The notes beneath the pieces are model-generated. The model had not been told where the DNA came from, made no database searches, and saw only the letters and a program-made list of their open reading frames with translations. This document shows positions 46,209 through 54,997 of a stretch of 64,000 nucleotides of DNA, one piece after another (within the stretch, counting starts at the first letter, position 1; every line of letters begins with the position of its first letter). The stretch comes from Spiroplasma cantharicola. Lineage in GTDB: Bacteria; Bacillota_I; Bacilli_A; Mycoplasmatales; Mycoplasmataceae. The translations under genes were made by a program, and so were the position numbers. The stretch lies in assembly GCF_001281045.1 (NCBI RefSeq), contig NZ_CP012622.1, positions 620,001 to 684,000 of the forward strand, in the 5' to 3' direction.

Positions 46209-46934
46209 CTATATTTTTTTAAAAATATAAAAAAATAGCATATGAAGTACAACTTCTCTTGATGAAAATTGTGAATTATCCAATGAATAATCTACTGTCA
46301 TTTTTTTTGTAAATTTAAAATTTAATTTATCAATTTGTTTATCTGAGGAAATTAAAAAATTAGTATAATTTTCGTCATAAGCTTTTGAAAAATTATCAAT
46401 TAAAGTATCGTTATCTCTACCAGTCAATATTAATAAATTAAACCCCTTTTCATTATTTTTTTTAGCTTTAAATCTAAATTCATTATTCAAAACTGTAACA
46501 TTTTTTTCATATTCATATAGCATATTTGCAAAATATCTTGAAGATTCATTTGCTTGATATGATGTATAAATATTAATAAAATCGCTTTCCCTAATTTTTT
46601 CACACACAGTATTTATAAAATCCTCATTTAAATGAATTCATTTTTCAATTGATTGAAAAATTTCGAAAGTTTCCATTTTCTCTTTTCTTTCATAATCAAG
46701 TTTTCTTCATTCATTTTTCATTTTAAAATTTAATTCTCTAAAACCAGAGAATCCCATTTTTTTGGCAAACTTGGTAATAGTTGAAATTGATACAAAAGTT
46801 TGTGCAGCTAATTCCTCTTGATCACAAAATATTGCCCTGTCAGCATTTTCTAATATTCTTTTTGCTATTATTTTAAAAGTTGTATCTTCAAATTCCTTGC
46901 TAATGATTTTTAAATTATCAAACACATATGTCAT
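46209..46934 (-). CDS. MurR/RpiR-family transcriptional regulator (module C)
   Basis: 241 residues with helix-turn-helix (LAAQTFVSISTITKFAKKMG) and a SIS-like domain. Clearly more distant from the other two regulators. It precedes glucosidase copy 4, its likely target. Starts MTYVFDNLKI at 46934; no strong ribosome site is visible. Confidence 0.88.
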
Positions 46935-47871: not shown

Positions 47872-48843
47872 TTAACTTTTTAAAATCTTTGCTAGAACTC
47901 CAAAACAGCCAGCTTTATTTTCTAAATTACTTTTTATTATATTTATATTTTCAATTGGTGAAAAATTTTGAAATAATAAAATATAATTTTTCGCCTTTTG
48001 AATTATGGTATCTAAAAATTTACTATTCGAACTTATTCCTCCACCAATAGTAATCGCATCAAAATCCATTAGAAAATTTAATGATACTAAATATTTAGTT
48101 AAACTAGTTGTTCATATATCAAAAATATCAACTGCCATTTGATCATTTTTTTCAACTAAGCTCATGAATTTTTTACCATCAATTAAATTTTTCTTTTTGG
48201 CACTATCTTTTGCTTTAGCTGTTATTACATTTTCAATTGGGGCAACTTTACCTAGTTCAATTGAATCATTATATCTCTTTAAATTTGCACCCGTAGAAGT
48301 GCTTTGAACAATTAAATTAATATCAGGTCTATCAAAGTTAGCAAAGAGTTTAGATAGCTCTCCTGCTCCCCCTTTAAAACCTTTATAAATTTTACCATTA
48401 ATAATAATTCCCCCACCAAGTCCTGTTCCTACAGTGACATGAAGCATATTTTTATATTTTTTATTCTGACCAAAATAATATTCTCCATAAGCAGCAGATT
48501 TTGCATCATTTTCAATTTCAAAAGTTTCAATATTTTTAAATTCAGCAAAAAAATCTTTTAAATTAATTTCTTTAATATTAGTTAAAGATGATTCAGATAA
48601 TATTTTGTATTTTTTTGAATCAATAATTCCTGGAATACTTATTCCTAAATTAATTTTAATATCTCTTGGCAAATCCCTTTTGATTAGTTCAAAAACATAA
48701 TTTGCATCTAATTGTCATGCATTTGCTCTTTTTTGATTATCATATTCTATAACACCTTCTGATAATATTTTTTGATTATCATCGATGATTATTTTTTTAA
48801 TACTTAATCCTCCAATGTCATATAAGTAGTTAGTGTTTTTCAT
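47872..48843 (-). CDS. ROK-family sugar kinase (sulfated-sugar module)
   Basis: A 323-residue ROK kinase: YDIGGLSIKK at the N-terminus (Leu in place of the usual Thr), HVTVGTGLGGGIIIN and FKGGAGELSKL. No helix-turn-helix and no Cys-rich zinc loop. It is last in the line TauE-sulfatase-PTS-ROK, 29 bases after the PTS stop. I infer that it phosphorylates a sugar released in this pathway. The Thr-to-Leu change is worth noting, but the rest of the nucleotide fold looks intact. Confidence 0.82.
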
Positions 48844-48872: not shown

Positions 48873-51530
48873 CTAGCCAATTATTTTGTTAGCTTTTTTA
48901 TTTACGTTATTTTGTTGTGAAATTTTTTTGATTATTTTGTTTAAAGTGATTTTGACATCAATTGGGTTTGATAATTTGTAAGTTATTTTTAAATCATTTA
49001 TAGAATTTTTATATAATAATTTTATTGAATTAAAATCTTCTAGTGAAAAATAATTTTCTAATTCATTTAAGTTATTTATAATAATTTCTTCTTTCTTTTT
49101 AATTGCCTGATTTAATCACTCTAATTTATCAACCATTTTTTTATCTAGTTGTTGAATTTTCATTTGCAAATCTTCTTTTTTAATTTCAAAAAAAACTTTT
49201 TTATGTTTTTCCATAATTGCTTTTGCTTTTACTATCTTACCTTTATTAATTAAAATAGAACCTTGTTCAAATAATTTCTCTTTGATTTTATTTTCTTTGT
49301 CAAAAAGTATTTCACGATTAATTTTATATTTTAGACTTTCAATTAATAACCTCTCAATTTTTTTTATTTTAATAACTTCTTCTTTGGTAAAGAAATTTTC
49401 TTCTGTTTTTAAAATATTTACTATTTTTTGTTTATCTTCAGTTGATAAATTAGAATTGGATAAATTAATTATTTTAATTAATTTAATATTATTTTTTTTG
49501 ATAATATTATTTTCCAATGATCTTTCTTTGTACATAAATATTGTAAACATTAAAGCTAATGCAACCGATAACATACAACATAAAATATTGTAAAAACCAT
49601 TTAAAGCATTTGGCAGTAATTCAACAGTAACTATTTCTGGGTTAATTGGATTTGAGAAAAATCCAAAGAACGAAAATACTCCTAATCCAGTACCTACTCT
49701 TTGTGAAACACTAAGCATATTGCTTAAGCAACCTGCAAAGAATGCTCCAAGAGTACCTGCAATAAAAGGCCTTACTTTTGGTAGATTAATACCATAAACA
49801 ATCGGTGCTGGAACTCCAAAGAAACCTGTAATTACAGTTGAACGAGCTTCTCTTTTAGTTGAACCATTTTTAGATATTATTATAACTGCAACAACAGCTC
49901 CAACTTGTCCTCAAACAGAAAACTCTCCTCCTGGAGTTAAATAACTAACCCCATCAGTTAATACTTGCATTTGAGAAATTTGTCCTACAGCAGAATGCAT
50001 TCCAATAACAACTAATGGCTGTCAAATCAGAGCATAAATACCAGTTCCAATTCCTAATGGAGCTGCTGTTACAAATCTTAAACCTACTGCAATTAATTGT
50101 TCAAAAATATATCAAATAGGTCCAATGATAAAGAATGTTATTAGAGCTGAAATTAATAATGTTAACGCTGATTTTAAAATTAATTCCAAAGATTTAGGAA
50201 CTCAAGTTGCAATTCAGTTATCAACTTTTTTTGTAATTATAATTGCCAATATTACAACAATTATTCTTGCTCCTTGAGGCATTATTTTTATTGAAGAAAG
50301 ACCAGATCAAACAGGATCATTAGGACTTATTCCTGTTTTAAATAAGTCTCAAGTATAACCAAAACCGATTGGTCCTCCATCACCAAATATTAATGGGCTT
50401 CCTAAAATAATAGAAATACTCATAGCAATATACATATTTAATTTAAAATACCTGGCAGCACTTAGTCCTGCCAATACTCCCATAAACCTTAAGGGAGTAT
50501 TGGATATTACATATAAAATAGCTCATAAAACATTTGTTTCTTTAATAAATTCTTGTCCTGGTTTTAAGCCACTCTCTGGCATTTTTAAAACTATATCTGG
50601 CATTATTTTTGAAATCTGTAAAACTCCAACAAATGCCATTATAATACCTGACCCTATCATAATTGGAATTAATGGCATCGATATTGAAGAAATTACAACT
50701 AACATTCTTTTTTTAAAAGACATTTTTCTATTTGCTAATAAATCAAATTCTCCTGAATTTTCAATTATTTTTAAAGCGTTATACAATTTGTAAACGTTTT
50801 TTCCTAAAATTAATTGTAATTCATTATTTTTTCAAACAACTGCCTTTATTTGGGAGATTTCTTGAAGTGAATTAATGTCTACAAGACTTTTATCTTTTAT
50901 TTTAAACCTAAGACGAGTTGAACAATTGTAAGAATTACTATAATTTGCTTTTCTTCCAACAAGTTCAATTACTCTTCTTGCAAGTAAGTCTCAATTTGAA
51001 CTAGTTTTAAAATATTTATCAACTTCAATTTCCCTTTCAGGTTCCAAAATAGATTCAAAAGTTCCTATTAATTGACCTTTTTTAACTTTTGTAGGTCCTG
51101 TAAAATAGGGTTTAAAAGTTCAATTTAACCTATTAGATTCATCATTAATTACAACAGCAATATTAGTATTTTTGTGGACTACTTTTAAATATTCCAAATT
51201 TACTTTTGCAATTTTTTCAAAATTTTTTAATTTATCATCTTGTTCTTTTACAATTTTAAAATATTTACTATCCTCTAATTCAAAGTCAAGACACATATTA
51301 ATCATGATTGAAGAGTTCAAATTATTTTGCTTCAAAAATAAACCATGATTTGTTTCAAAAATTAAATCAACATTTGCATTTTCAATTGGGTTATAGATTT
51401 CATTTGATGTTGCAGATATAAAATAACCTATTCCTAGAGAGTTATTTTTAAAAACTTTATCATCAATATTTTCTATTAAATCAATTACTCCATCACAAAC
51501 AGCATAAACATTTAAAATTTTTTTCTGCAT
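48873..51530 (-). CDS. Divergent PTS enzyme IIABC with altered active sites and C-terminal extension
   Basis: 885 residues with IIA-IIB-IIC-tail order. The IIA domain is degenerate: the FLIHCGMDT motif is replaced by SIMINMCLD, so the phosphorylated His is Asn78 (the other conserved His, in NHGL, remains). IIB keeps its Cys in NCSTRLRF. In IIC the conserved GITEP is GVPAP, replacing its Glu with Ala575. IIC otherwise aligns (YGINLPKVRPF) and a 215-residue coiled-coil tail follows. It must be phosphorylated from another IIA, or act differently. It lies 38 bases after the sulfatase, so a sulfated sugar is the inferred substrate. Confidence 0.82.
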
Positions 51531-51568: not shown

Positions 51569-53107
51569 CTAAGCAATTTTTGAAGCTTCTTTATCTAGAC
51601 CAATTCTTTGATAAGTTTCTAGAGGAGCATCAACTGTTTTCATTTTTTTAACCATTTTTTCAATCATCATTTGTTCAATTTTTTTATCTTTTAATGGATT
51701 TAATTGATTTGGATCATTTTCTAAATCAAATAATAGATTTCCATATTTAAATGAGTTTGCACTAAGTAAAGGTATATCTAAATTAAATTTCATCATTGGC
51801 ATTCAATTTGAAAATCTTGTTCCTTTTACATATTGCATATCATTTAAAAAGATATCAGGTAAAAATCCTTTCATGAAATTAAAGTTCAATGTGTATTGTG
51901 TATTTGGAGAGTTTTTTTCATCTTTAGCAGCTTTCATATAAACATATTTTCCATCATATATATTTACATGTCCTCCATTAATACCAAATAAAATTTCTTT
52001 ATGATTATTTTTATCTTTTCTTAGTGCTTCATAAATTGAATTACCATCTCGATCAAAATCGTCTTTCATATTAAAGTATTCCAAAATTGTTGGAGCTATG
52101 TCAATTGTTTGACATAATTTATCAAATCTTTTTCCATCCATATTTGCAAATTCAGGAATATGTAAAAAGAACGGTGTGTGAATTAATTCATCATATCAAG
52201 GTGAAGATGATTTACCAACAAAATTATGTTCTCCAGTTAAAAATCCATGATCTGTATTTACAATTAGCATTGTGTCTTTTCACAAATCATTTTCGTCAAA
52301 ATAATCTAAAATTTTTCCCAAGTATTCATCAATCATTGAAATTAGTGCGGCATATTCAATTTGAAGTTTTTTAACATTTTCAGATTCCTTTTCTTCATCA
52401 TAGTGACTATATTTTGGTCAATTCGGAATATTGTCTGTATATGTAGCTCCATAAATATCTCTATATTTTTGAGGCATTACAAATGGTTCATGAGGATCAA
52501 AACATTCAATTTGTAATAATCAATTATCTAATTCCTTATGTCCTTTCAAAAAATCAATACCTGATAACATTGTTTGGACACTAGAATAACTTGTATCTTC
52601 TTGTGTTAAATGAGCCAAATTTGATTTTCCATATTTCAAAAAATTTCATTTCTCTTCTGTAGTTGATGGGTCAAAACTAGTATTTAAACCATTTTCATGA
52701 GGTTGATCGTGATTTTTACCATAAGCTGCCGGTATTCATTGATCATATTCTTGTCCCCTATAACCTTCTCAAGTGTTATATCTTGTATGATAAGTCCCTC
52801 CACCATCTTCTCAATAATGTCAATGGTCAGTTGTTAAATGAGTATAAATATTATTATTTTTCAAATGCTCAAATATTGAATTATCAAAAGGTTCTAATTG
52901 TCCTCAACTTCTATGTAAAAAATTATATCTTCCAGTATGAATTTCTCTTCTAGCAGGCATACATGGCATACTTCCTGCATAAAAATTATCAAATGTAATT
53001 GTCTTTTCTCCTAATCTTTTAAAGTTTGGCGCATGAACTCAATCATTGCCATAATTAGGTAAGTACTTTCTTGTTAATGTATCAAACATTAATATAACTG
53101 CTCTCAT
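51569..53107 (-). CDS. Sulfatase, Cys-type (formylglycine-dependent), cytosolic
   Basis: A 512-residue arylsulfatase-family hydrolase that removes sulfate esters. The signature C-x-P-x-R is complete in SMPCMPARREIHTGR (Cys49 becomes formylglycine). Metal-binding residues are visible: Asp9 in MFDTLT and the pair in VNTDHGFLTGEHNF. There is no signal peptide, so it should act in the cytosol on an imported substrate. AAAGGAG precedes the ATG. Its activating enzyme is divergently encoded about 1 kb away and a PTS gene follows. Specific substrate unknown. Confidence 0.93.
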
Positions 53108-53211: not shown

Positions 53212-53255
53212 AAAAATAATATTAGATTTAATTAAATTAGATCTAATATTATTTT
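53212..53255 (-). terminator. Terminator of the TauE/SafE gene
   Basis: A 15-base-pair stem (53213-53227 with 53241-53255) overlapping the stop codon and followed by T residues on the minus strand. Confidence 0.7.
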
Positions 53256-54062
53256 GATAATAGATATTCAGATTACAATTATTAATAATCACTTAATATA
53301 AATTTCTTTTTTAATAATTTTTTTTAAATAGATGGCTGCAATAAATCCTAGTATTACTGGAATAGCAAAAACTAAATTTTTGATTCAAACTTCTTTTACA
53401 GTTCAAGGATTATAGCCCATAGAAATAGGATTTAAAATCAAAGAAATAAACGAAGAAATCATTATTAAAGTATGAGAGATTGGTGCAGCTGTACTTATTT
53501 TTAAGGAAAAAATTATTATAAGTAAAGGCATTATGATTGGACCTCCACCCATTCCAGTTAGAGATGTTATAATACCGCCAATAAAAGAAATTAGAGATAA
53601 AAGAAGAATATTAATTTTTTCCCCTTCATTACTTGTAATATAAAAATTTTTATTAAGCTTATATACTTTTTGACTATTATCTTTTATTTTTAAAAAATAC
53701 TCTGAGTAAATTAGCATAAAGGTCACAATTACTAAAGTAACTGCTACTATAATTTTGATTACACTATCTGAATTAATACTTTTTGATATTGTATTTCCAA
53801 TTAAAATTGATATTGTCGAAAAGACAATACCAACTAATAAAATTTTGTAATTAAGTCTCTTTTTAATAATTTCAATTAACACATTCATGGAAGAACCTAA
53901 AAATACTAAAAAAGTCGATATGTACTTTATTTCATTTAATTCATCATTTAAAAAAAGTAAAAATAAAGGCACATAAAGTACCCCACCACCAACTCCAGAA
54001 ATAGATCCCAATATTGATATCAATAAAATAATAATTGATAGCCATAATAATGTAATTCCCAT
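53232..54062 (-). CDS. TauE/SafE-family sulfite/sulfate exporter
   Basis: A 276-residue membrane protein with about eight helices and the two repeat motifs of the family, SISGVGGGVLYVP near the N-terminus and SLTGMGGGPIIMP in the second half. Family members move sulfite, sulfonates or other small sulfur anions. Next to a cytosolic sulfatase the obvious role is to expel the released sulfate, which is inference. GGAGAT precedes the ATG at 54062. It starts 80 bases from, and divergent to, the formylglycine-generating enzyme. Confidence 0.85.
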
Positions 54063-54142: not shown

Positions 54143-54997
54143 ATGATTTTAATACAAAGTGGTACTTTTTTAATGGGTGGCGATGCCGAAGATGGTTTTA
54201 TATATGATAAAGAAGGACCACCTACTCTTATAGATATTAATGCGTTTTATATTGATGAAACTTCTGTAACTAATGCAGAATTTCAAAAATTTACAAATGA
54301 AACTGATTATATAACCGAAGCTGAAAAATTTGGAAATTCATTTGTATTTGCAGGATTATTAAGTGATGATGAAAGACTTACATATCAAAAAGCTGATTTA
54401 ATGGGAATTTGATACGATGTTCCTGGAGCAAATTGAAGACATCCACAAGGACCAAAAACAAATATTGCCGATAAAATGAACAACCCAGTTGTTCACGTAT
54501 CTTTATTTGATGCTATTGAATATTGTAAATGAGCTGGAAAAAGATTACCAACCGAAGCTGAATGAGAATATGCAGCTCGAGGAGGTTTAGTACAAAATAA
54601 ATTCAGTTGAGGAAATGAATTAAAACAAAATAATAAATATAATCTAAATATTTGAAATGGAGACTTTCCATTTGGCAATACTTTAGAAGATGGTTATTTA
54701 GATTTAGCTCCTGCAAAATGCTTTGATCCTAATGGATATGGAATTTATCAAATGTTAGGAAATATTTGAGAATGATGTATCAATGTAAAAAATGTTCCGC
54801 TAGAATATTTTAAAAAAAATAGCACTAAGGAAATAATAGATTTAGAAATCAATGAAAGTAAAGACTATGCCCTTCGAGGTGGTTCATATTTATGTCATGA
54901 TGGTTTTTGTAAAAGATATAAGGTTTATTCTAGAAATGGAACAGCTCCTAGATCAACTGCAGGAAATATGGGATTTAGATGTGTTAAAGATGTTTAA
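54143..54997 (+). CDS. Formylglycine-generating enzyme (sulfatase-modifying factor)
   Basis: Oxidises the Cys of the C-x-P-x-R signature in sulfatases to formylglycine, using molecular oxygen. The 284-residue protein has the FGE-sulfatase fold: GTFLMGGDAEDGF at the N-terminus, VSLFDAIEYCKWAGKRLPTE, WEYAARGG and LGNIWEWC. The C-terminal copper-site pair is Cys251 and Cys256 in SYLCHDGFCKRYK, the canonical spacing. TGA Trp codons are frequent. GGAGG precedes the ATG. It is divergent to the TauE gene and near the sulfatase, its evident client. No signal peptide, matching the cytosolic sulfatase. Confidence 0.93.

Follow-up and report, generated by a model that had tools for sequence, protein, structure and literature searches.

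A conserved Spiroplasma EIIABC in a sulfatase operon has lost catalytic residues of its IIA and IIC domains and may import a sulfated sugar without phosphorylating it

A phosphotransferase system (PTS) enzyme II of Spiroplasma cantharicola lacks both the phosphorylated His of its IIA domain and the Glu of the ITEP motif in its IIC domain, and both changes are shared by three species. The gene (48873..51530, minus strand) lies within the 64,000-nucleotide stretch of DNA analyzed here, referred to as the window, and encodes 885 amino acids in a single open reading frame under code 4, the host being a mollicute with a 1.18 Mb genome that reads TGA as Trp. The best explanation we can offer, held with slightly less than even confidence from sequence comparisons, is that this altered EIIABC imports a sulfated sugar, probably without phosphorylating it, and that a ROK-family kinase encoded in the same operon would phosphorylate the sugar after desulfation.

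By fold and descent, the protein is a PTS EIIABC. Matches to PF00358, PF00367 and PF02378 are all above the cut-off, and the layout comprises an inactive IIA (residues 1-150), an intact IIB (178-260), IIC (265-672) and a helical C-terminal extension (673-885; window positions 48873-49514); an extension of about 200 residues also follows IIC in four paralogs encoded in the window. The site of the phosphorylated IIA His (E. coli His90) is occupied by Asn78 (codon AAT, 51297..51299, minus strand; context SSIMIN78MCLD), and GVPAP stands in place of GITEP (G572-V-P-A575-P; 49803..49817, minus strand), with Ala575 encoded by GCA at 49806-49808 on the same strand. All four window paralogs (26301, 29069, 33761 and 41095) align with a His78 equivalent and with GITEP. 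A sequence-only reading of this DNA had claimed both substitutions together with retention of the IIB Cys, and each of these claims was borne out; IIB keeps Cys203 and both catalytic Arg residues (C203-S-T-R206-L-R208, 50907..50924, minus strand; context YNC203STR206LR208F). Also retained are His62 (51345..51347, minus strand; context FETNH62G), equivalent to E. coli IIA-Glc His75, and IIC His512 (49995..49997, minus strand; context GMH512S), which aligns with MalT His240 and E. coli His211-212 (PMC11393339). The altered EIIABC contains four His residues (62, 119, 512 and 776), of which only His62 lies in the IIA active site, and no second ITEP-like motif, its sole xEP being ILEP at residue 161 in the linker. 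A misaligned His or an ITEP elsewhere in the protein, either of which would have spoken against the sequence-only reading, is thus ruled out as an artefact. As two defining catalytic features are missing, annotation of the protein as a beta-glucoside PTS that works by itself would be inappropriate.

In the PTS glucose superfamily, the sugar 6-OH is the phosphorylation site, and the Glu homologous to that of ITEP is important for substrate binding in other enzymes II. E298 of E. coli IIC-Glc coordinates OH-6 of glucose and, together with T297, makes the main contacts with this sugar; their counterparts are T354 and E355 in MalT, with E334 in ChbC corresponding to the Glu (PMC11393339). The motif of the altered EIIABC aligns without gaps to those of E. 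coli IICB-Glc and B. cereus MalT, and therefore Ala575 replaces the Glu equivalent to E298 and E355, and Pro574 the Thr equivalent to T297 and T354. Loss of these two sugar-binding residues is consistent with import that is uncoupled from phosphorylation. An AlphaFold model built from 25 sequences (mean pLDDT 75, with most IIC blocks at 75-96) suggests that the IIA, IIB and IIC folds are all complete, in agreement with the earlier description of the protein as otherwise full length. In structural alignments, the modelled IIA matched 2gpr (Z 20.3, 150 residues), the modelled IIB matched 1o2f (Z 14.3), and the modelled IIC matched the MalT crystal structure 5iws (Z 18.5, 341 residues, rmsd 4.7).

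Evidence that the altered protein is maintained came from its relatives. Full-length orthologs with 79% identity were found in two of the 60 genomes searched among relatives (G003 and G009). Both share Asn78 and GVPAP with the altered EIIABC, and residues 560-600, the 41 around GVPAP, are identical in all three proteins. A pattern scan of genome contigs yielded no further orthologs; its patterns include Trp (TGA here), and near genomes may be missing from the set scanned. In a comparison set of 65 mollicute EIIABCs, consisting of the altered protein, its two orthologs and 62 others, His78 and Glu575 are each present in 62/62 of the others and in 0/3 of the altered clade; that Asn78 and Ala575 are unique to the three orthologs favors the proposed uncoupled import. 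Signature positions, defined as those conserved in at least 90% of the other EIIABCs, are changed at 10/19 sites in IIA, 2/17 in IIB and 3/25 in IIC, while canonical paralogs have at most 4/20 IIA changes. The catalytic signature of the IIA domain has therefore gone, with a new one now maintained in its place, whereas IIB seems functional and a single invariant position has changed in IIC; loss of signature in IIA only is a further point in favor of uncoupled import. Among basic residues in IIC, only Arg563 is both new in all three orthologs and absent from other EIIABCs.

Pairwise dN/dS values (Nei-Gojobori, code 4) are 0.19 over the whole gene, 0.18 in IIA, 0.31 in IIB and 0.14 in IIC. They indicate purifying selection on every domain, a point in favor of the proposed importer, and hence not decay. 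The earlier statement that this was "not plain decay" is supported by these values and by conservation in three species, and a pseudogene reading is rejected on the same grounds. In a genome rich in EIIABCs, a redundant paralog at an early stage of decay could explain the loss of many conserved IIA residues and an overall dN/dS that exceeds the 0.07-0.13 of canonical paralogs. However, reading frames are intact in three species, dN/dS is far below 1 in each domain, and both substitutions are common to all three proteins, as are the 41 residues around GVPAP, making decay extremely improbable.

The arrangement of neighboring genes points to a sulfated substrate. A Cys-type sulfatase (51569..53107, minus strand; C49-M-P-A-R) is encoded 38 bp upstream of the EIIABC gene, and a predicted ROK-family sugar kinase (47872..48843, minus strand) 29 bp downstream. 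The sulfatase has no obvious signal peptide in its sequence, and is assigned to type I on the basis of its CxPxR site, its match to PF00884 (94 bits) and its partner, a formylglycine-generating enzyme (FGE) of the kind that activates Cys-type sulfatases (54143..54997, plus strand, divergent; GGSYLC....C; PF03781, 235 bits). Between the two lies a gene for a TauE/SafE-family exporter (53232..54062, minus strand), which precedes the sulfatase gene. The ROK protein (PF00480, 145 bits) has the ENDA motif with its catalytic Asp, and DIGGL for DIGGT, as does a relative with 54% identity in G023. DIGGLS in place of the ATP-binding DIGGT was seen in ROK proteins of two genera (window 47872-48843 and L175:4556-5524). 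The gene order in G003 is the same as in the window. In G009, an IS-like insertion (IS3-like transposase ORFs, L012:8957-11087) parts TauE and FGE from the sulfatase, EIIABC and ROK genes, which stay together. That the three-gene block is intact in both genomes, despite the insertion in G009, identifies sulfatase-EIIABC-ROK as the unit, and its retention and its close 38 and 29 bp spacing are consistent with import followed by desulfation and phosphorylation. Similarity of the sulfatase to known structures was indecisive as to substrate, the best PDB sequence match being to an unspecific sulfatase (E 6e-23), with a GlcNAc-6-sulfatase at 6e-17. A literature search on Spiroplasma sulfatase-PTS loci found no paper.

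The same surroundings bear on whether the protein transports at all. It could instead be a sensor or regulator that binds the sulfated sugar and signals through the phosphorylation state of IIB or by binding a regulator. The combination of catalytic changes with three conserved domains would fit such a role, as would a nearby gene for an RpiR-type regulator (46209-46934). However, the RpiR gene comes ~940 bp after ROK, and the next gene after ROK in G009 is instead an anaerobic ribonucleotide-reductase-like one. Moreover, the elevator-type IIC is full length and keeps its other conserved positions, the sulfatase neighbors in other bacteria are transporters, and the operon contains no other importer gene. 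We therefore regard a sensor as very unlikely. The sequence-only reading had offered "a sensor or non-phosphorylating transporter" as one option; nothing was found that supports the sensor, while the transporter is possible given the loss of the Glu that holds OH-6 (PMC11393339) and the kinase gene that follows.

Comparison with sulfatase-linked PTS loci elsewhere both strengthens and complicates the case for a sulfated sugar. Four other mollicute genomes (G015, G033, G080 and G081) encode relatives of the sulfatase, each genome with FGE and a nearby EIIABC that has a canonical IIA (His) and GISEP or GVSEP; TauE is present in most, and none has an adjacent ROK gene. A scan of named genomes for the sulfatase gave 80 loci, 18 of them with an adjoining PTS gene, including loci in Enterococcus, Listeria, Paenibacillus, Collinsella, Lachnospira, Pediococcus and two mollicutes. 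The PTS at all 18 loci keeps the Glu, and IIA keeps its His wherever IIA was seen. Loci in Enterococcus and Listeria carry a radical-SAM/SPASM gene of the sulfatase-maturase type, and most also have TauE and FGE. The resulting cassettes (PTS-sulfatase-maturase-TauE-FGE), found in Enterococcus, Listeria, Paenibacillus, Collinsella, Williamsoniiplasma and Mesoplasma, resemble the operon described here in that a PTS lies beside a close relative of the sulfatase (45-63% identity) and the ITEP Thr is replaced (Pro574 here). They differ in keeping the IIC Glu and, where seen, the IIA His, in having no ROK, and in the lineage of their EIIC. Import at the Glu-keeping loci would give a sulfated sugar phosphate, with the sulfatase alone finishing the route, and no ROK gene was found within ~10 kb of these 18 loci (0/18), which favors a compensating role for the kinase in the altered operon. 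A second sulfatase subfamily directly adjoins PTS genes with normal GITEP (L181:3748-11244, in G082, and L111:4011-7518); the G082 locus also holds GH1, TauE and FGE.

Loss of the ITEP Thr was counted in a tree set of 76 EIICs, made up of 21 that are sulfatase-linked (loci L096-L147, 18 of them with PTS, and L030-L034), the altered EIIABC included, and 55 others. The Thr is replaced by Ser, Gly or Pro in 21/21 sulfatase-linked EIICs, compared with 8/55 of the others. The tree shows five origins of the sulfatase link, and paired comparisons went in the expected direction in ~4/5 cases and never in the opposite one, too few for significance. Universal Thr loss among sulfatase-linked EIICs supports a sulfated substrate, also for uncoupled import, and suggests that Pro574 is tied to that substrate; Ala575 is private to the altered clade. 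The sequence-only reading had put forward a new specificity, such as for a sulfated sugar, and this part is well supported by the sulfatase operon, the adjacent FGE and TauE, and the pairing of this sulfatase subfamily with PTS genes in many Firmicutes. Since all other sulfatase-linked EIICs keep the Glu, accommodation of sulfate alone is weakened as the cause of the Glu-to-Ala change; a sulfated substrate by itself needs no such change, which also counts against uncoupled import.

The second part of that suggestion, feeding by another IIA, is possible. Under such a model, IIA is vestigial, IIB Cys203 is phosphorylated by a soluble Crr or by the IIA of a paralog, and the sugar, perhaps sulfated, is phosphorylated at a free hydroxyl in a reshaped pocket that lacks the Glu. 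IIB has an intact signature next to a degenerate IIA, the genome encodes an intact soluble IIA (Crr, 158 amino acids, LLHIGLDTV), and the window contains two IIBCs that lack a IIA and must already draw on one in trans; for these reasons, trans-feeding is a serious rival. The sulfatase-linked PTSs elsewhere, which look catalytically complete, also favor continued phosphorylation, and retention of Cys203, Arg206 and Arg208, with only 2/17 IIB signature changes, would be unexpected if phosphotransfer had been abandoned, and is the chief obstacle to uncoupled import. On the other hand, Glu575 is invariant in the 62 mollicute relatives and in all Firmicute EIICs seen, and its equivalent holds the phosphorylated OH-6 in IIC-Glc; a kinase gene follows in the operon, yet there is no ROK near the Glu-keeping sulfatase-linked PTSs. 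We consider trans-feeding a real but less than probable explanation, and sequence alone cannot separate it from non-phosphorylating transport.

The altered clade resembles beta-glucoside-type EIIABCs (TIGR01995; paralogs P0002-P0005) in its IIA-IIB-IIC order with C-terminal extension, its fold, its IIB Cys and Arg residues and IIC His512, with 31-34% identity, and trees place it on a long stem within that lineage. It differs in having Asn for the IIA His, Pro-Ala for the ITEP Thr-Glu and a largely lost IIA signature, and its neighbors are a sulfatase and ROK, whereas those of the beta-glucoside-type paralogs are GH1 6-phospho-glucosidases. A single clade with the GISEP sulfatase-linked mollicute EIIABCs is rejected (AU p 0.0002), and hence a different paralog was recruited; mutation in place of the relatives' sulfatase-linked PTS is rejected on the same evidence. 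The nearest ROK outside the clade, the 54% identical protein of G023, shares the DIGGLS motif and is encoded in a canonical PTS-GH1-ROK operon, and for this reason the kinase was probably acquired from an operon of that type. Descent from the G023 operon is rejected, the G023 PTS not being sister (AU p 0.001). That the nearest relative serves a canonical PTS-GH1 operon also argues against uncoupled import, as ROK may have been inherited rather than compensatory. Tandem EIIABCs with GVPEP or GIPEP (L066, L077 and L082; G031:976-987 kb) are sister to the sulfatase-linked GISEP clade, and that of L082 has Gln at the IIC His512 position. A further EIIABC group (L084, L086, L087 and L091) has GITET for GITEP, losing the Pro and keeping the Glu.

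For uncoupled import, we propose that a sulfatase operon took in a beta-glucoside-type EIIABC, which then came to import a sulfated sugar. The IIA of this importer would be unable to carry phosphate, and replacement of Thr574-Glu575 by Pro-Ala would deprive the ITEP loop of the two side chains that chiefly grip the sugar, one of them the carboxylate holding OH-6 in E. coli IIC-Glc, and so leave space for an anionic sulfate group. Most likely, the sugar would enter unphosphorylated, its acceptor position being blocked or unheld. A cytoplasmic sulfatase, activated by FGE, would then strip the sulfate, ROK would phosphorylate the freed sugar, and TauE would export the sulfur anion. We infer this substrate, this mode of transport and this role for ROK from the loss of the donor site and the acceptor-holding residue and the gain of a kinase gene, for which unphosphorylated uptake, desulfation and phosphorylation by ROK form the simplest route. 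It has been argued that C6-sulfated sugars do not suit the PTS as substrates, having no phosphorylation site (PMC6837340), which fits a 6-sulfate substrate and favors uncoupled import. What would power such uptake is not evident.

The idea that IIC can move a sugar unphosphorylated is shared with known uncoupled PTS permeases, namely laboratory mutants and a galactitol-type IIC that moves xylose (PMC10989795); in the altered EIIABC, uncoupling would have arisen in nature and reached fixation in several species. In its most specific form, the proposal is that selection in nature turned a PTS enzyme II into a permease uncoupled from PEP, the OH-6-holding Glu having been removed to fit a 6-O-sulfated sugar and phosphorylation having moved to a kinase acting after desulfation in the cytoplasm; we advance this only tentatively, judging it rather doubtful in full. 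PTS transporters are defined by the coupling of transport to phosphorylation, and here a conserved lineage is missing both ends of that coupling within its own polypeptide. If uncoupled import is true, natural evolution can separate the two processes, and the altered clade would offer a test of the function of the ITEP Glu. Loss of the ITEP Thr, as a possible marker, may help to predict sulfated-sugar uptake in gut and insect-associated bacteria.
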